Shown one piece after another: positions 1 to 49,871 of a stretch of DNA of 64,000 nucleotides (positions are counted from its first letter, which is position 1; every line of letters starts with the position of its first letter). The DNA lies in contig NZ_CP016438.1 in assembly GCF_001685355.1 (NCBI RefSeq), forward strand, positions 3,038,001 to 3,102,000. The letters are read 5' to 3'. The notes under the pieces are model-generated. The model made no database searches and was not told the DNA's origin. It saw only the letters and a program-made list of their open reading frames with translations. The stretch comes from Streptomyces lincolnensis. GTDB taxonomy: Bacteria; Actinomycetota; Actinomycetes; Streptomycetales; Streptomycetaceae. Both the position numbers and the translations under genes were made by a program.

Positions 1-533
1 CCGTCCTCGACACGGGTCCACGCGGGCCCGCCGAAGATCGACTCCCAGTCGTTGGGCGGCAGTTCGCCGTTCTCGCCCTTGCCGGGCCGGAAGTGGTAGC
101 GGTCCCGCAGCGGCGATCCGGGACCGTCCGCGACCGCCCGCCTGAACCACTCGTACTGGTCGGAGGAGTGGTTGGGCACCAGGTCGACGATGATCCGCAG
201 GCCCAGCTCGCGGGCGTCGCGGAGCAGGGCGTCGGCGTCGAGGAGGTTGCCGAACATGGGGTCCACGGCCCGGTAGTCGGCCACGTCGTAGCCGGCGTCG
301 GCCTGCGGGGACGCGTAGAAGGGGCTGAGCCACACGGCGTCCACGCCCAGGTCGCGCAGGTACGGCAGTCGGGAGCGGATGCCCTCCAGGTCGCCCATGC
401 CGTCGCCGTTGCTGTCGGCGAAGCTGCGCGGATAGACCTGGTAGATCACCGCGTCCCGCCACCAGTCCCCGCGCGGGGCGGTGGCGAGGGGGGAGGTGGG
501 TGCCGGGTCAACGGCGGAGTGCTGCTGGCTCAT
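1..533 (-). CDS. aglA: Alpha-glucosidase, GH13 (N-terminal part, cut by window edge)
   Basis: Intracellular glucosidase expected to release glucose from imported maltose and maltodextrins. Only about 177 N-terminal residues are visible; the gene runs off the left edge. The GH13 opening block WWRDAVIYQVYPRSF lies near residue 24, followed by an NGDGMGDLEGI segment, and conserved region I (DLVPNHSS) near residue 115. It is the last visible gene of the leftward malE-malF-malG-aglA series, 131 bp after malG. The ATG start gives MSQQHS and fits the family. The family call is firm. The assignment to maltose use rests on the neighbours, and other alpha-1,4 or alpha-1,6 glucosides are possible because the catalytic residues lie outside the window. 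Confidence 0.9.
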   Translation of the reverse strand, partial: MSQQHSAVDPAPTSPLATAPRGDWWRDAVIYQVYPRSFADSNGDGMGDLEGIRSRLPYLRDLGVDAVWLSPFYASPQADAGYDVADYRAVDPMFGNLLDADALLRDARELGLRIIVDLVPNHSSDQYEWFRRAVADGPGSPLRDRYHFRPGKGENGELPPNDWESIFGGPAWTRVED

Positions 534-590
534 GGCGTCCTTGGTACGTAACGGAGTCATCGGGTCATCAGGTCAAAGGTAGGGGGGTGA

Positions 591-640
591 CGAGGCGGCC
601 ATGGTGACAGCGGGGTCGGATGGTCACCACGGCCGCCTCG
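591..640 (-). terminator. Long stem-loop between malG and aglA
   Basis: Two 18-nt arms (591-608 and 623-640) pair with a single A/C mismatch around a 14-nt loop. It follows the malG stop in the leftward transcript and precedes aglA. It could end or attenuate the malEFG message or stabilise its 3' end, giving less aglA than transporter mRNA. There is no U-tract, which is usual for Streptomyces terminators. Confidence 0.6.
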
Positions 641-664
641 GGTATCGGGGGGTGCGGGCGGGCC

Positions 665-1576
665 CTACCCCTTCGTGCCGCCCGCCGTCAGCCCGGTCAC
701 CAGGTTCTTCTGCACGAAGTAGAAGAACGCGGCGGCCGGTATCGCGATCAGCACGGCCGTCGCCGCCATCAGGTTCCGCTGTGCGTCGTGCTCGCTGACG
801 AAGGTCTGAAGGCCGACGGCGAACGTGTACTTCGTGTCGGACAGCATGAACGTCGACGCGAACGCGACCTCGCCGAAGGCGGTGAGGAAGCTGTAGAAGG
901 CGGCCACCGCCAGGCCGGGCCGGGCGAGCGGCAGGATCAGGCGGGCGAACGTGCCGAAGGGGTTCAGCCCGTCGACGCGTCCCGCCTCGTCGATCTCGAA
1001 CGGGATGGTGTCGAAATAGCCCTTCATCAGCCAGGCGCAGTACGGGACGGTGGTCGTGCAGTACACCAGGATGAGGCCAAGGTAGGTGTCGATGAGCTGG
1101 AGGTCCGACAGGATCTGGTACATCGGCACCATGAGTACGGCCACCGGGAACATCTGCGTGACCAGTAGCACCCACATGAACTTCCGGTAGCCCGGGAAGC
1201 GCATCCGCGAGACCGCGTAGCCGGTGGTGGCGGAGATGACCACGCCGATGGCGGTGGTGCCGAGCACGACGACCAGCGTGGTCCGGAGCCAGTCGAAGAA
1301 CTTCGTGTTCTCAAGGACGAACGTGTAGTTGTCGAACGTCATCTTTCCCCAGATGCCGCCGGGGTGCAGGTAGTCGTCCTTGTCCGGGCCGAGGGACAGA
1401 TAGACCAGCCAGACGATCGGGAACAGCGCGACCAGGCTCGCGGCGATCAGGATGCCGTGGGAGGCGAGGCGGACGCCGGGGCCGCTCTCGCCGCGGCGCC
1501 GGGTCCTGCCGGGCGGGCCGGCCGGGGAGTTCCGCGCGCTCGTCGCGGCGGAGGTCTCGACTTCGGTCGTACTCAT
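665..1576 (-). CDS. malG: Maltose/maltodextrin ABC transporter permease MalG
   Basis: Inner-membrane subunit of a CUT1-type sugar importer, 303 residues. After a basic, Ser/Thr-rich N-terminus it shows six hydrophobic segments, and the cytoplasmic EAA loop (EIDEAGRVDGLNPFGTF) near residue 200 that docks with the ATPase. The ATPase itself is not encoded here; Streptomyces CUT1 importers generally share MsiK encoded elsewhere, so this is expected and not a defect. The gene starts 13 bp after malF and is surely cotranslated with it. The ATG at 1576 has a GGAGTTCC-type ribosome site. Confidence in the permease family is very high; the sugar specificity is inferred from malE, aglA and malR alongside. 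Confidence 0.93.
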   Translation of the reverse strand: MSTTEVETSAATSARNSPAGPPGRTRRRGESGPGVRLASHGILIAASLVALFPIVWLVYLSLGPDKDDYLHPGGIWGKMTFDNYTFVLENTKFFDWLRTTLVVVLGTTAIGVVISATTGYAVSRMRFPGYRKFMWVLLVTQMFPVAVLMVPMYQILSDLQLIDTYLGLILVYCTTTVPYCAWLMKGYFDTIPFEIDEAGRVDGLNPFGTFARLILPLARPGLAVAAFYSFLTAFGEVAFASTFMLSDTKYTFAVGLQTFVSEHDAQRNLMAATAVLIAIPAAAFFYFVQKNLVTGLTAGGTKG

Positions 1577-19344: not shown

Positions 19345-21942
19345 TCAGGGCAGGAGCTCGACGTACCCCCCGGTTCCGTGCACGCGGATCCGCTGCCCGT
19401 CCCGGATCCGCCGGGTGGCCCCCTCCACGCCCACGACGGCCGGCAGGCCGTACTCGCGGGCGATCACCGCGCCATGGGTCATCAGGCCGCCCACCTCCGT
19501 CACCAGGCCCGCGACCGCGACGAACAGCGGCGACCAGCTGGGGTCGGTGAAGGTCGTGACCAGGATGTCGCCCGCTTCGAGATCGGCGTCCGCCAGGTCG
19601 AGGACGACGCGGGCCCGCCCCTCGACGGTCCCGGCGGAAACCGGCAGGCCGACCAGGGCGTCGGCCGGCACGTCGTCGCGCCGGTACGCCCCGTTGAGCG
19701 CTTCCCCGTCCGAGGTGAGCACCCGGGGCGGGGTGAGCGCCTGGTACGAGCGGTACGCGTCCTTGCGCTGTTGGATGAGCCGGTCGTCCACAAGGTGCGA
19801 GCGCACGACGTCGTGGAGTTCCTGGAACGTGAGGTAGAAGATGTCCTCCTGCTCGGCAAGCACGCCGGCCCGCACGAGGCGCCCGGCCTCCCCCAGCAGG
19901 GCCTGCTTGTAGACGAAGTAGCGGCTGACGATGTCGTACTTCGGGTACTCGCGGTAGCCGATGAAGGTGCGGACCCGGTCGATCATGGCCTTGGTCTCGT
20001 CTGCCTTCCGCGCCCCGTCCGGCAGGGCCCTGAGGCGTGACAGCACCTCCTGTTCCTTCTGCTGCGCCTGCCGGTGCCCCTGCTCGAAGCGCCGCCGGGC
20101 CGCGCCCGGTTCGAAGTTCCTGACGTTGTCGAGGATCACGGGAACGAGCGTGCCGGGACGCTCGCGCCAGCGCGGCCTCGTGATGTCGATCTCGCCGACG
20201 CAGCGCATGCCGTACAAGTCGAGGTAGGCCTCGATGGCGTCGCGTGCCTCGGTGCCGCCCGGGAGCTTCCCCAGTTCGTCGAGGAAGCCGTCGTCCCGTA
20301 CGTCCCGCAGGAAGGCGACCACCTCGGTGTGCGGGCGGATCACGTCCGCGACGTCGAGCAGCGCGAGCCCCATCTCCGAGGTGACGTTGCCGGGGGCGGA
20401 CAGGGTCAGCGTGTCGGCGGCGTTCTTCTCGCCGAGCCACTCCTCCAGCTTGTCGTTGAGCCACCAGGTGGCCTCCATCCCCGCCATGATCGCCTGGAAG
20501 TTCAGCGGGTCTCCGAGGACGCGTTTGTGCTCCTCGACGGCCTCCAGCAGGAAGTCGAACAGCGCCGGTCCGGTCTTCGTCCGTACCTCGCGCCGAAGGG
20601 CGGCGACGGACTCCCGGCTGCGCTCGATCAGCCCGGCAACGACGGCCGGATCGGTCTCGATCGGGGTGGGCGGTCCCCCGGCCCGCGGCCCGGCGGGGGG
20701 CGGGTCCGGGAGCGACGGGACGAGGTCCTCACGTTCGAGGACGGTCTCCAGCGCGTCCCTGACCAGTGGATCGCCCCTGCCCATGAGGTCCAGAAGGCCG
20801 GCGCGGCTCGCGGGCGAGGCCAGGCGCGGGGTGATCTCGACGAACAGCCTCCCGCCGGCCTCGTGCATCGGAGTCATCGCCGTCAGCCGCCACATGGAGA
20901 GCCCCAGGGGCTTCATGGCGTCGGTCATCATCTGCTGGTGGCCGACGGAGACGTAGACGTGAGGCTCCTGGTCGCCGGTCTCGGGGACGGGGAACAGCGT
21001 CGTGATCGGCCGGCTCTGGACGATGTGGAAGTCGTCGTCGGCCAGGCACCATTCGATGTCCTGCGGGCGGCCGAAGTGCGCTTCGATCCGCCGCCCGAGT
21101 TCCACGAGCCGTACGACCTGCGCATCCGTCAGCGCCGGCTGCTCCTGCCGCCGCGCGTCGACCGCCACTTCCCGCGTGCCGCCGGCCGGCAGGGCGTGAA
21201 CGGCACGCTGCTTGGCGGCGATCGCCTTGGCGACGATCTCGCCGTGGCGCACCTTGAAGACGTCCGGGTTCACCAGGCCGGAGACCAGGGCCTCGCCGAG
21301 GCCGAAGCCGGCGTCCACGGTGGCGGTCCGCCGGTCGCCCGTGACGGGGTCGGCCGTGAACAGGATGCCGGCCGCGTCCGGGAGGACCATCCGCTGCACG
21401 ACCACGGCCATGCGGACCGTGCGGTGGTCGATGCCCTGGCGCCGGCGGTAGGTCACGGCCCGCTCGGTGAACAGCGAAGCCCAGCACCGGCTGACGTGCT
21501 CCAGGATCGCCGTCGGCCCCATCACGTTCAGGTACGTGTCCTGCTGGCCGGCGAAGGAGGCCGTCGGCAGGTCCTCCGCCGTCGCGCTGGACCGGACCGC
21601 GTAGGCGGCCCGCTCACCGAACCGGGTGAGCGCGCCGGTGATCGCCGCCGCGAGATCGCCCGGGACGGCGATCCCCTCGATGGTCCGGCGCGTCCGCTCG
21701 CTGAGCGTGCGGACCGCCTCCCGGTCGTCCGGGTCCACGCGCGACAGCCGATCGAGCAGGTCGTCGACCGACGGCGCCCGCGCCACGACCCGTTGGAAGG
21801 CGTCCGTCGTCACGCAGAAACCGGCCGGCACGCGGATGCCGTCGATCCGCGACAGCCGGCCCAGGTGCGCGGCCTTGCCGCCGACGGCCGCGACCCTCGT
21901 CTCGTCGACTTCGTGAAGACCCACCACGTACGGCTCGCTCAT
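19345..21942 (-). CDS. rph: Rifamycin phosphotransferase Rph
   Basis: Cytoplasmic resistance enzyme of 865 residues that inactivates rifamycins by transferring the beta-phosphate of ATP to the antibiotic. Domains follow the Rph plan: an N-terminal PPDK-like ATP-grasp (GGKAAHLGRL, YAVRSSATAEDLPTASFAGQ, QRMVLPDAAGILFTADP), a central helical rifamycin-binding region (about residues 330-750) and a C-terminal swivelling phospho-His domain with the catalytic histidine in GGLMTHGAVIARE (His823). PEP synthase is excluded by length and the central domain. The RAE box upstream (22063-22081) is the established signature of rifamycin-inducible genes and supports the call. The ATG has GGGGGAG upstream. 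Confidence 0.93.
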   Translation of the reverse strand: MSEPYVVGLHEVDETRVAAVGGKAAHLGRLSRIDGIRVPAGFCVTTDAFQRVVARAPSVDDLLDRLSRVDPDDREAVRTLSERTRRTIEGIAVPGDLAAAITGALTRFGERAAYAVRSSATAEDLPTASFAGQQDTYLNVMGPTAILEHVSRCWASLFTERAVTYRRRQGIDHRTVRMAVVVQRMVLPDAAGILFTADPVTGDRRTATVDAGFGLGEALVSGLVNPDVFKVRHGEIVAKAIAAKQRAVHALPAGGTREVAVDARRQEQPALTDAQVVRLVELGRRIEAHFGRPQDIEWCLADDDFHIVQSRPITTLFPVPETGDQEPHVYVSVGHQQMMTDAMKPLGLSMWRLTAMTPMHEAGGRLFVEITPRLASPASRAGLLDLMGRGDPLVRDALETVLEREDLVPSLPDPPPAGPRAGGPPTPIETDPAVVAGLIERSRESVAALRREVRTKTGPALFDFLLEAVEEHKRVLGDPLNFQAIMAGMEATWWLNDKLEEWLGEKNAADTLTLSAPGNVTSEMGLALLDVADVIRPHTEVVAFLRDVRDDGFLDELGKLPGGTEARDAIEAYLDLYGMRCVGEIDITRPRWRERPGTLVPVILDNVRNFEPGAARRRFEQGHRQAQQKEQEVLSRLRALPDGARKADETKAMIDRVRTFIGYREYPKYDIVSRYFVYKQALLGEAGRLVRAGVLAEQEDIFYLTFQELHDVVRSHLVDDRLIQQRKDAYRSYQALTPPRVLTSDGEALNGAYRRDDVPADALVGLPVSAGTVEGRARVVLDLADADLEAGDILVTTFTDPSWSPLFVAVAGLVTEVGGLMTHGAVIAREYGLPAVVGVEGATRRIRDGQRIRVHGTGGYVELLP

Positions 21943-22045
21943 CGCGCTCCCCCGACCGGTCCGACGTCGCCGCGTCCCTCGTACGTCGACAGCAACACAC
22001 GCACGTTCGTGCCCTCATTTCCGCAGGTTGTGGCATCGGCCGACG

Positions 22046-22076
22046 ATTGTGCGCCCCCACCCGGGTCTTGCGGCAA
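22046..22076 (-). promoter_or_regulatory. Possible rph promoter overlapping the RAE
   Basis: Read leftward, TTGCCG (22071-22076, inside the RAE) and CACAAT (22046-22051) are spaced 19 bp and could be the -35 and -10 of rph. The spacing is longer than ideal, so this is tentative. Confidence 0.4.
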
Positions 22077-22081
22077 GCCCC
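22063..22081. promoter_or_regulatory. Rifamycin-associated element (RAE)
   Basis: GGGTCTTGCGGCAAGCCCC is a 19-bp inverted repeat (GGG-n-CTTG around CGG) that fits the RAE known to precede rifamycin-inactivating genes and helR in actinomycetes. It lies between divergent rph and the APH-like gene, and could contribute a -35-like TTGC(G/C)G hexamer to the promoter on each strand. The regulator that reads RAE is not identifiable here. Confidence 0.8.
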
Positions 22082-22096
22082 CCGGCGCGCTATAGC
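22068..22096 (+). promoter_or_regulatory. Promoter of the APH-kinase/deaminase pair, overlapping the RAE
   Basis: TTGCGG (22068-22073, within the RAE) and TATAGC (22091-22096) are separated by exactly 17 bp, a good sigma-70-type promoter reading rightward. A perfect inverted repeat GATCGT-gcg-ACGATC at 22135-22149 lies just before the first start codon and may act on translation or bind a second regulator. Confidence 0.6.
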
Positions 22097-22155
22097 TTGA
22101 GAAGGGAGGGGGGATCTCTCTCCGTCCGTTCGGCGATCGTGCGACGATCACTGGC

Positions 22156-23106
22156 GTGACCGACTTAATGCCCCCCCAGGACATGGCCCGCCGTACCTCG
22201 GCCGCAGTGGACGCGGCTGTCGGGGCGGCGCGCGATCTCGGACTCACCGTGACGGACGCCCGGGTGCTGCACGACCTGTTCTCCGTCGTCGTCCACCTCG
22301 CGCCCTCACCGGTCGTGGCCCGCGTTCCCACCGTCCTGCCGGCCCACACGGACCTCGACGTCCTGGCAGACCGTCAGCGGGCGGAGCTGGACGTGACCCG
22401 GTGGCTCGCGGATCAGGGAACGCCGGTGATCCCGCCGAGCCCGCTGGTGCCGCCGGAGCCCGTTCGGCGGGACGGATTCTCGATGACGTTCTGGCAGTTC
22501 GTCGAGGAGGACCGGTCCAAGGAGCCCGACTACGCGGCGAACTCCGAGATCACCGCCGACCTGCACGCCGCGATGCGCGCGTATCCGGGCCCGCTGTCGT
22601 TCCTGTCGGCGGCCGATCCGCAGTTCGTCACCGACAGCCTCGACCTGCTCGGTGACAGTCCCGACCTGCTCGCTCCGGCCGATCTGGACCGGGCCCGCCG
22701 GGAGTGGCAGGTCCTGGAGCCGCTCGTGCGCTCGCGTACGGCGTTCGAGAAGGCGTTCCCCGGCGTCGACCTCCAGCCCGTCCACGGCGACTCCCCGCCC
22801 GCGAACGTCTTCGCCGGGGTGGACGGCGCCCGCTACGCCGACTTCGAGCTGGTCACCCTGGGCCCCGTCGAATGGGACCTGGCCGCCCTCGGACCCGACC
22901 TTGAGGCCGCCTACAACCGCGGCGCGCGGCGCAACGGCATGCGGCCGCTGAACGAGGACGTCCTGCGCTTCGTGAACGCGGTGGGCATGCTGCGGGCCAT
23001 CACCTCTCTCACCCTCGTGCCCCAGTTCCCCGCGCTGCTGGAGTACTTGAGCCCGGCCGTCGACCAGTGGCGGACGACACCGTTCGCCGGCGGGGTGGCC
23101 GGATGA
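22156..23106 (+). CDS. APH-family small-molecule kinase
   Basis: A 316-residue protein of the aminoglycoside phosphotransferase/choline kinase fold. It has the Brenner-type catalytic motif VHGDSPPANVF near residue 210 and the metal-binding DFELVTLGPVEWDLAAL near residue 230. The N-lobe is degenerate, with no classical glycine-rich loop, as usual for APH enzymes. It is the first gene downstream of the rightward RAE promoter and is translationally coupled to the next gene. It could phosphorylate an antibiotic or a nucleoside-like compound; neither is shown. The GTG at 22156 gives MTDLMPPQDM; an ATG four codons later is possible. Confidence 0.82.
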   Translation: MTDLMPPQDMARRTSAAVDAAVGAARDLGLTVTDARVLHDLFSVVVHLAPSPVVARVPTVLPAHTDLDVLADRQRAELDVTRWLADQGTPVIPPSPLVPPEPVRRDGFSMTFWQFVEEDRSKEPDYAANSEITADLHAAMRAYPGPLSFLSAADPQFVTDSLDLLGDSPDLLAPADLDRARREWQVLEPLVRSRTAFEKAFPGVDLQPVHGDSPPANVFAGVDGARYADFELVTLGPVEWDLAALGPDLEAAYNRGARRNGMRPLNEDVLRFVNAVGMLRAITSLTLVPQFPALLEYLSPAVDQWRTTPFAGGVAG

Positions 23107-23537
23107 CCTCGGCGCTCCCCGCCGCCGACCGGGAACTCGTCCGGGCCGCGGCCCACGTCGCGCGCACGCGGTGCCGGGGCGACAACCACACCATGGCGGC
23201 GGCGGGCCGCGCCCCCGACGGCCGGATCGTCACCGCGGTGAACGTCTACCACTTCACGGGAGGGCCCTGCGCGGAGCTGGTCCTCATCGGCGCGGCCGCC
23301 GCCCAGGGGGTGTACGAACTGGAGACGGTGGTGGCCGTCGGCGACCGTGACCGCGGGGTCGTTCCGCCGTGCGGCCGGTGTCGTCAGGTGCTGCTCGACT
23401 GCTTCCCCGCCGTCAAGGTCCTCGTCGGTCGGGGTGATCGCGTCCGGTCCGTGCCCGTCGCCGACCTGCTGCCCGAGAGCTACGTCTGGGCCGACCACCA
23501 GGTCGAGGCGGACACCGCCGCGCCGTCGGAGCCGTAG
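23103..23537 (+). CDS. Cytidine deaminase-like (blasticidin-S deaminase type) zinc enzyme
   Basis: A 144-residue cytidine-deaminase-fold protein. Zinc ligands and the proton-shuttling Glu are present in GGPCAELVLIGAA and PPCGRCRQVLLD. The Cys-Ala-Glu variant and overall size match homotetrameric cytidine/blasticidin-S deaminases. Its ATG overlaps the stop of the APH-like kinase (ATGA), so the two are coupled and share the RAE-linked promoter. It may deaminate cytosine nucleosides for salvage or inactivate a peptidyl-nucleoside antibiotic; the operon context favours a resistance role, as inference only. Confidence 0.85.
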   Translation: MTSALPAADRELVRAAAHVARTRCRGDNHTMAAAGRAPDGRIVTAVNVYHFTGGPCAELVLIGAAAAQGVYELETVVAVGDRDRGVVPPCGRCRQVLLDCFPAVKVLVGRGDRVRSVPVADLLPESYVWADHQVEADTAAPSEP

Positions 23538-48998: not shown

Positions 48999-49871
48999 GT
49001 GTTCTCCAACTACCTGATCGGTCTGCGCGAGGGGCTTGAGGCCAGCCTCGTCGTCTGCATCCTCATCGCCTACCTGGTCAAGACGGACCGCCGGGACGCG
49101 CTCAAGCCGATCTGGACCGGCATCGGTGTCGCCCTCGCGCTGGCGCTGGGCTTCGGCTGCGCGCTCGAATTCGGCTCCCAGGAGCTGACGTTCGAGGCGC
49201 AGGAGGCGCTCGGCGGCTCGCTGTCGATCCTCGCGGTCGGCCTGGTGACGTGGATGGTGTTCTGGATGCGGCGCACCGCCCGGCATCTGAAGGCCGAGCT
49301 GCACGGCAAGCTGGACGCGGCGCTCCAGATGGGCACCGGGGCCCTGGTCGCGACCGCGTTCCTCGCGGTCGGCCGCGAGGGGCTGGAGACGGCCCTGTTC
49401 GTGTGGGCTTCGGTGCGCGCGGCCGGGGACGGCTCTCCGCGTCCGCTGGTCGGCGTCGGCCTGGGCATCGCCACGGCGGTCGTGCTGGGCTGGCTGTTCT
49501 ACCGCGGGGCGCTGAGGATCAACCTGGCCAGGTTCTTCACCTGGACCGGCGGGATGCTGGTCGTCGTGGCGGCGGGTGTCCTGGCGTACGGCGTCCACGA
49601 CCTCCAGGAGGCGGACTGGGTGCCGGGCCTGACCGACAAGGCCTTCGACATCAGCGGGACCATCCCGCCGGACAGCTGGTACGGCACCCTCCTCAAGGGC
49701 GTGTTCAACTTCCAGCCGGATCCGACGGTCCTCCAGGTCACGGTGTGGCTGCTGTACCTGATCCCGACGCTCGCGCTGTTCCTCGCCCCGGTAGGGTTCG
49801 CCTCCGGGAAGGGGAAGGTGAAGGAACCTGATGAGCAGGGATCGCGGCCCTCGAAGGCTCCGCAGTCTTGA
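48999..49871 (+). CDS. efeU: Iron permease EfeU (FTR1 family)
   Basis: Integral membrane iron permease of 290 residues with seven helices and the two RExLE iron motifs, REGLEA (residues 9-14) and REGLET near residue 126. The C-terminal tail is hydrophilic. A GTG start lies three bases after the peroxidase stop. With EfeO and EfeB it forms a complete EfeUOB importer. The last 41 bp overlap the following lipoprotein gene in another frame. Confidence 0.94.
   Translation: MFSNYLIGLREGLEASLVVCILIAYLVKTDRRDALKPIWTGIGVALALALGFGCALEFGSQELTFEAQEALGGSLSILAVGLVTWMVFWMRRTARHLKAELHGKLDAALQMGTGALVATAFLAVGREGLETALFVWASVRAAGDGSPRPLVGVGLGIATAVVLGWLFYRGALRINLARFFTWTGGMLVVVAAGVLAYGVHDLQEADWVPGLTDKAFDISGTIPPDSWYGTLLKGVFNFQPDPTVLQVTVWLLYLIPTLALFLAPVGFASGKGKVKEPDEQGSRPSKAPQS

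Follow-up and report, generated by a model that had tools for sequence, protein, structure and literature searches.

The rifamycin-associated element as a probable promoter with two legs, one usually a dead end that in Streptomyces lincolnensis may open onto a kinase-deaminase gene pair

Rifamycin-associated elements (RAEs) are palindromic sequences of 19 bp (PMC10719064, PMC10194278) that precede the genes rgt, rph, rox, arr and helR (PMC10719064). In mycobacteria, the RAE of helD overlaps the -35 region of promoter 2, the start of which was mapped in Mycobacterium smegmatis; deletion of half the RAE abolished helD induction, yet the -35 was lost along with it (PMC10719064). The mechanism of rifamycin sensing by the RAE has been described as unresolved (PMC12802891), and no mention of the RAE was found in the main text of PMC13246000 and PMC11464796. 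Here we describe the RAE between rph and a kinase-deaminase gene pair in a stretch of 64,000 nucleotides from Streptomyces lincolnensis (contig NZ_CP016438.1, positions 3,038,001 to 3,102,000), hereafter called the window, and its comparison with RAEs from other Streptomyces and from the class. This comparison suggests that the RAE is a promoter with two legs, one of them a built-in dead end, an arrangement of which no description was found among the literature matches listed. If RAEs generally carry a second leg, rifamycin sensing becomes directly testable at a fixed far-side offset.

In the window, 213 bases separate the ATG of rph (21942, minus strand) from the GTG of the kinase gene (22156, plus strand), with a single RAE inside (Table 1). 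Direct reading of the letters thus confirmed a previous account of this DNA made from its sequence alone (the sequence-only reading), which had placed a 19-bp inverted repeat of the RAE type between rph and a kinase/deaminase pair. The dyad has two mismatches to the RAE consensus, which we take to be GGGGCTTGCGGCAAGGCCC, and none to GGGNCTTGCNGCAAGNCCC; in the scan of the window it has one mismatch to the search pattern on both strands. As in the RAE class, it precedes a rifamycin-inactivation gene, namely rph, which passes NF041857. The third match in the window (49031-49049, plus strand) has three mismatches on one strand only and is at chance level, because at three mismatches the genome-wide control exceeds the pattern (see below). 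In shuffles of the window 0.21 matches per shuffle are expected at up to three mismatches. On the left leg, TTGCCG (22076-22071 on the opposite strand) lies inside the RAE and is separated by 19 bp from CACAAT, as the sequence-only reading had stated. By sequence, the -35 region of the predicted downstream start and the RAE thus overlap. On the right leg, TTGCGG (22068-22073) is found 17 bp from a TATAGC (22091-22096). A consensus promoter scan of 21940-22200 found nothing, which is expected given CANAAT and the 19-bp spacing.

Table 1. Features of the rph-kinase region, in coordinates of the window; boxes, starts and functions are predictions.
Feature	Position	Strand	Remarks
RAE dyad GGGTCTTGCGGCAAGCCCC	22063..22081	.	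common to both legs; centre overlaps both TTGC -35-like elements
Sense-leg -10 box CACAAT (CANAAT class)	22046..22051	-	11 bp from RAE, faces rph; predicted start 22039
Antisense-leg -10 box TAGCTT (TANNNT class)	22093..22098	+	11 bp from RAE, faces away from rph; overlaps TATAGC; predicted start 22105
Terminator remnant, antisense leg	22105..22123	+	hairpin with G-U pairs, no U tract
rph, rifamycin-inactivating phosphotransferase	19345..21942	-	NF041857, 1628 bits, cut-off 999
22-codon leader open reading frame (stop included) encoding VRVLLSTYEGRGDVGPVGGAR	21939..22004	-	homologous to rgt start; stop overlaps rph ATG
TGCGACGAT, -10-like motif conserved among the kinase genes of this family	22140..22148	+	16 nt before start; likely native leaderless promoter
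Kinase gene, APH/phosphotransferase family	22156..23106	+	many relatives named phosphotransferases, carry PF01636
Blasticidin-S-deaminase-like gene	23103..23537	+	ATGA overlap with kinase stop codon

The right-hand box recurs at RAEs in general. In 112 oriented loci (subsets of 30, 32 and 50, the last from other genera), TANNNT stands exactly 11 bp past one RAE end in 30/30, 32/32 and 49/50, and at no other offset from 5 to 25 in any of them; CANAAT stands exactly 11 bp past the opposite end in 26/30, 31/32 and 38/50. The orientation of these loci relied on the boxes themselves, and the strand of rph served as an independent check. When RAEs with at most one mismatch were oriented by rph alone, TANNNT was present at offset 11 on the far side in all 130 of them, 98 of which had been retrieved after the box rule was fixed. 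The rules for boxes and terminators were both formulated after viewing sequences; fresh tests were provided by 20 class loci, in all of which TANNNT was present, and by 103 rph loci. On the sense side, a NANNNT box sits at this offset in the 132 rph loci in which an RAE was found. One locus whose RAE has two mismatches (L273) is without TANNNT.

The far-side block in the rph set reads TATANNTT, its sixth letter being G in 75%. It reads CCGGCGCGCTATAGCTTGAGAA on the kinase side in the window, and CCGGTGCGCTATAAGTTGAGAG on the side away from rgt at the other RAE of this genome. Among other genera, several loci vary at the first two bases of the block and retain TANNNT; these loci have no TATA two bases upstream yet keep the TANNNT at offset 11. 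TATAGC was dropped as the right -10 for this reason, and since TANNNT stays while the first two bases vary across genera, the register in the window is TAGCTT. Thus the TATAGC of the sequence-only reading is indeed there, 17 bp from TTGCGG, but the -10 had been set two bases off and the predicted start is 22105, not 22103. With the right -10 at 19 bp, both legs are symmetric about the dyad. Judged by its recurrence, the right-hand box is part of the RAE and not a special promoter of the kinase gene.

These counts derive from the following samples. Flanks were read for 30 loci among the matches listed by the Streptomyces scan, for 50 among those listed by the class scan (30 and then 20 more picked from the list), and for L001, L002 and L094, the last from S. 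lincolnensis L4. Two of the 50 loci are cut by a contig end, and two class flanks are short (33 and 57 bases; L174 and L176). The far-side block is carried by 29 of the 30 loci from the Streptomyces scan; L039, which has one mismatch and no block and apparently lies within a coding frame, was excluded from the 112. The rph set comprises the 134 of 392 genomes with rph above cut-off, plus L094, i. e. 135 loci; the two sets share 30 rph loci (L064-L093) as well as the window and L094. An RAE with at most one mismatch was found in 130/135. When up to three mismatches were allowed, 104 sites had none, 26 had one, two had two (L228 and L273, both outside the 130) and none had three, and in three loci (L241, L255, L318) no RAE was present within 1.5 kb.

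In the 10.3-Mb genome itself only two sites have at most two mismatches to the consensus, the RAE of the window and one before an Rgt-like glycosyltransferase gene. With the dyad written in IUPAC code and at most one mismatch there are likewise two sites, and none with the reversed pattern as the control. Sites at three mismatches carry no meaning, because genome-wide the reversed control outnumbers the pattern (12 and 14 matches vs. 3 and 2). Across the class, the exact dyad occurs in 69 of 197 genomes (16 of them Streptomyces) and the reversed pattern in one. The match in 333 of 392 Streptomyces genomes at up to one mismatch overstates the presence of RAEs, because the reversed control also matches many genomes, at 0 to 4 places each.

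The genes behind the two legs are very different. The sense leg (CANAAT) leads to rifamycin genes in 108/112 loci (37 rph, 35 HelR, 22 Rox, 10 Rgt-like and 4 Arr, named from scanned members of each cluster; both Rgt-like members scanned fall below the curated cut-off). The neighbours on the far side (TANNNT) fall into 95 clusters among 107, a number that depends on gene calls by a crude codon-position GC rule. As these neighbours are unrelated, the far leg seems to be conserved on account of the RAE and not of a partner gene.

Some loci deviate from this pattern. The sense leg of L190 enters a gene for a DrrA-like ABC transporter ATPase (382-1500, minus strand; TIGR01188 above cut-off), outside the five usual families. 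In four loci divergent frames, all on the minus strand, begin at a distance of 43-119 nt from the RAE's far end, no terminator being detected (L197:1026-1457, L206:533-1456, L205:950-1381, L191:511-1425; crude gene calls) and may be more second units on a far leg. Related frames in L208 (973-1479, minus strand) and L210 (1541-1984, plus strand) start at a GTG inside the conserved far-leg GAGAGTGG and are possibly near-leaderless far-leg genes.

Directly after the far leg, Streptomyces loci usually show GGCAAGGAG-loop-CTCCTTGCC or a variant of it, and then a T-rich stretch. By a strict rule (stem score plus at least four T in eight), a terminator is present on the away leg in 21/30, 30/32 and 16/50 loci of the three subsets. 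For the sense leg the counts are 0/30, 0/32 and 1/50, and dinucleotide shuffles give 7%, 6% and 3%. In the rph set the rule is passed by 120/130 loci, including 90 of the 98 retrieved later; eight of the remaining ten retain, by eye, the hairpin with a weak T tract. Stem variation is compensatory, and several loci thereby lose the CTTGC core. Of 67 hairpins, 48 have their foot at offset 23, the predicted +1 position, so the predicted RNA would be about 31 nt long and consist almost entirely of terminator. The fold of the hairpin at the rph locus L066 has a z of -5.69 against shuffles. A comparison of five loci with Rfam gave no family at the hairpin, the sole match being a tRNA elsewhere. A sense-oriented upstream promoter using TATAGC was also considered and rejected; its -35 would sit in the variable loop of the hairpin.

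The last two of the 130 rph loci are the window and L094. Only in these is the second arm of the hairpin lost together with the T tract. The remnant in the window folds no better than shuffles (z -0.62; 49/200 shuffles equal), and two rules detected no terminator between the far leg and the kinase gene. Past the lost arm both sequences continue into the kinase gene's own leader, which is recognizable in relatives elsewhere. Read-through from the far leg into the kinase pair is therefore plausible.

The kinase gene has a promoter-like motif of its own. TGNNANNAT is present in the window at 22140-22148 and occurs near the start in 42 of 74 kinase relatives, 40 times at -15 or -16, and all 42 are among the 61 relatives with at least 60% identity; it was found in 0/74 in a control stretch and in 0.8% of mononucleotide shuffles. 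This motif was worded after viewing the sequences, and an earlier rule with fixed spacing matched 22/72, the window not among them. No Shine-Dalgarno sequence is visible before the GTG of the kinase gene. Together, motif and missing Shine-Dalgarno sequence would fit a leaderless promoter that is native to the kinase gene and does not depend on the RAE, and the pair can probably be transcribed without an RAE.

The association of the RAE with this pair is not conserved across species. An RAE, rph or the deaminase was found in the retrieved flanks of only one of the 74 kinase relatives, L094 from the near relative S. lincolnensis L4, which is also the only one with the kinase-deaminase pair; flanks are visibly cut by contig ends in eight of the 74, and the set may omit records near the window's own genome. 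For five further kinase orthologues, even four allowed mismatches gave no RAE in the surrounding 1.5 kb. According to the sequence-only reading, one RAE serves two divergent units, and sharing it would bring the second unit into the RAE regulon. The first of these claims is supported insofar as a promoter-like leg points each way with no terminator detected before the kinase gene. Membership of the pair in the regulon is not supported by the right leg, since the same leg is found at nearly every RAE examined whatever follows, and 73/74 kinase relatives are without RAE and rph in the flanks retrieved. The comparison across Streptomyces rph loci that had been suggested found the far -10 at all 130 RAEs with at most one mismatch, but as a generic part of the RAE, with the kinase as neighbour only in the window and L094. 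The position of an RAE between divergent genes is not enough to place the far gene in the rifamycin response, and rifamycin control of the kinase pair is possible but unproven.

The window kinase itself has no Pfam or NCBIfam match at 1e-3. Among solved structures the deaminase matches blasticidin-S deaminase (1wn5, E 1.7e-33) and, as the best cytidine deaminase, one with 4.5e-10; in NCBIfam it matches cytidine-deaminase models only, all below their cut-offs. By its matches to solved enzymes the putative enzyme is closer to blasticidin-S deaminases than to cytidine deaminases; in the window its gene overlaps the kinase gene at ATGA. Taken together, rph, kinase and deaminase make up a small cluster of genes likely to inactivate antibiotics.

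The leader on the rph side resembles the start of rgt. Remnants of rgt follow the RAE in 24/37 rph, 7/35 helR and 3/22 rox loci (blastn, E 1e-4), three of the helR matches being only 24 to 30 bases long; this count replaces a blastn test that had included the conserved block beside the RAE. Decayed rgt starts between the RAE and rph, some helR and rox are seen in the window and in L062, L042, L053, L043, L038 and L037. This suggests that an RAE together with an rgt start has repeatedly been captured by other rifamycin genes.

Our preferred interpretation, to which we assign a probability of roughly two in three, is that two divergent promoters, each excluding the other, have the RAE as their common core, with an away leg that is usually terminated and that in S. 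lincolnensis has been opened onto the kinase-deaminase pair. A polymerase bound on one leg covers the other. The 19-bp dyad would provide a TTGC -35-like element each way, with the -10 boxes 11 bp outside, CANAAT on the side of the rifamycin gene and TANNNT on the side away from it. In Streptomyces the away leg would usually be shut by an intrinsic terminator that begins at the leg's own predicted start. In S. lincolnensis and L4 the kinase-deaminase pair would have come to lie beyond the away leg and the terminator would have decayed, so that read-through into the pair can occur. Boxes, spacing, terminator and its loss, the unrelatedness of the far genes and the kinase motif can be read from the DNA itself; beyond these, the away leg would have to be active and the kinase pair to receive read-through from it, and a dyad-binding factor and/or competition between the legs would render the sense leg rifamycin-inducible. 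Several points weigh against this interpretation. The start and end positions of both legs are predicted from sequence, and the two mycobacterial promoters P1 and P2 are both sense-oriented (PMC10719064). Outside Streptomyces the terminator is above chance but is missing in 34/50 loci by the strict rule, and at the rgt RAE of the same genome the hairpin is only modestly better than shuffles (z -1.68). The remnant in the window still forms a hairpin with three T in the next eight bases, and some termination there is conceivable. The window and L094 are close relatives and hence represent one loss event. Finally, the full GGG...CCC dyad is retained beyond what the -35 elements need, and with arms so over-conserved the main part could fall to a bound regulator, with a lesser role for the away leg.

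The kinase pair might instead be independent of the RAE, driven from its own leaderless promoter TGCGACGAT with a start around the GTG and merely moved beside rph in the S. lincolnensis lineage. The family motif, the absent Shine-Dalgarno sequence and the many relatives without RAE argue for this, the post hoc wording of the motif and its failure under fixed spacing against it, and if the intact away leg is active, read-through is expected precisely where the hairpin has been lost. We consider the chances of this independence about even, and both promoters may act. Where the interpretations of the RAE itself diverge is in what makes the sense leg inducible. One dimeric regulator bound to the RAE could govern both legs alike, so that rph and the kinase pair would be co-induced by rifamycin, the idea of the sequence-only reading; the equal distance of both -10 boxes from the dyad ends and the preserved GGG/CCC arms fit such a shared operator, and a regulator of the RAE, unnamed in the passages concerned, has been proposed (PMC12802891, PMC10719064). 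Yet the far-side genes elsewhere are unrelated, which leaves co-induction without a conserved purpose, and the pair carries a promoter-like motif of its own, so that we hold this to be doubtful. Pure competition, in which the RAE is normally taken up by a stronger away leg that shuts out the sense leg until rifamycin tips the balance, predicts the opposite response of the pair, i. e. down as rph goes up. It is favoured by the better far-side box, which begins with the consensus T (the sense box mostly begins with C), by the overlap of the legs, and by precedent: promoter interference underlies rifampicin sensing at helD and pps of Bacillus subtilis (PMC12802891) and is reported for rpoBC of M. 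smegmatis (PMC10719064). The B. subtilis promoters are convergent, however, and repositioning them into a steric polymerase clash abolished induction (PMC12802891); moreover, a polymerase arrested by rifamycin on the away leg ought to obstruct the sense leg, not free it, as long as it stays in place. We regard pure competition as unlikely and rank a regulator somewhat ahead of it; the conserved arms favour a bound factor. A bolder variant, which we think improbable, dispenses with a dedicated regulator altogether: the away leg, firing RNAs of about 31 nt made up only of terminator, would meter polymerase traffic, hindrance by rifamycin would let the weak sense leg win, and in S. lincolnensis this meter would be wired to the pair as a two-way resistance switch. 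Least probable in our judgement is that far-side TATA and hairpin belong to a larger regulator site or terminate unrelated antisense transcripts. The transcripts of the leg are predictions, and the common form of the hairpin arm shares CTTGC with the RAE; but compensatory stem changes remove this core in several loci, by the terminator rule, hairpin plus T tract occur on the far side of the RAE and almost never on the sense side, and TANNNT keeps one fixed offset.

The RAE as a putative divergent promoter pair can be compared with several described systems. For published RAEs, the relevant passages describe sense promoters only and mention neither a second -10 box nor a dead-end terminator; in the window, the second leg has lost its stop. 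The rifampicin alarm of helD and pps in B. subtilis is similar in that a weak sense promoter of a rifamycin-resistance gene is opposed by an antisense promoter. There, however, the promoters converge and their starts span 39 bp (PMC12802891), whereas the legs of the window RAE diverge from a shared core with overlapping -35s; assignment of the window to this convergent dual-promoter class was rejected on these grounds. The rpoBC promoter pair of M. smegmatis shares with the proposed competition that stronger inhibition of one promoter by rifampicin brings relief to the other, but there both promoters drive the same operon, and no RAE is mentioned for rpoBC in the passages on it (PMC10719064).
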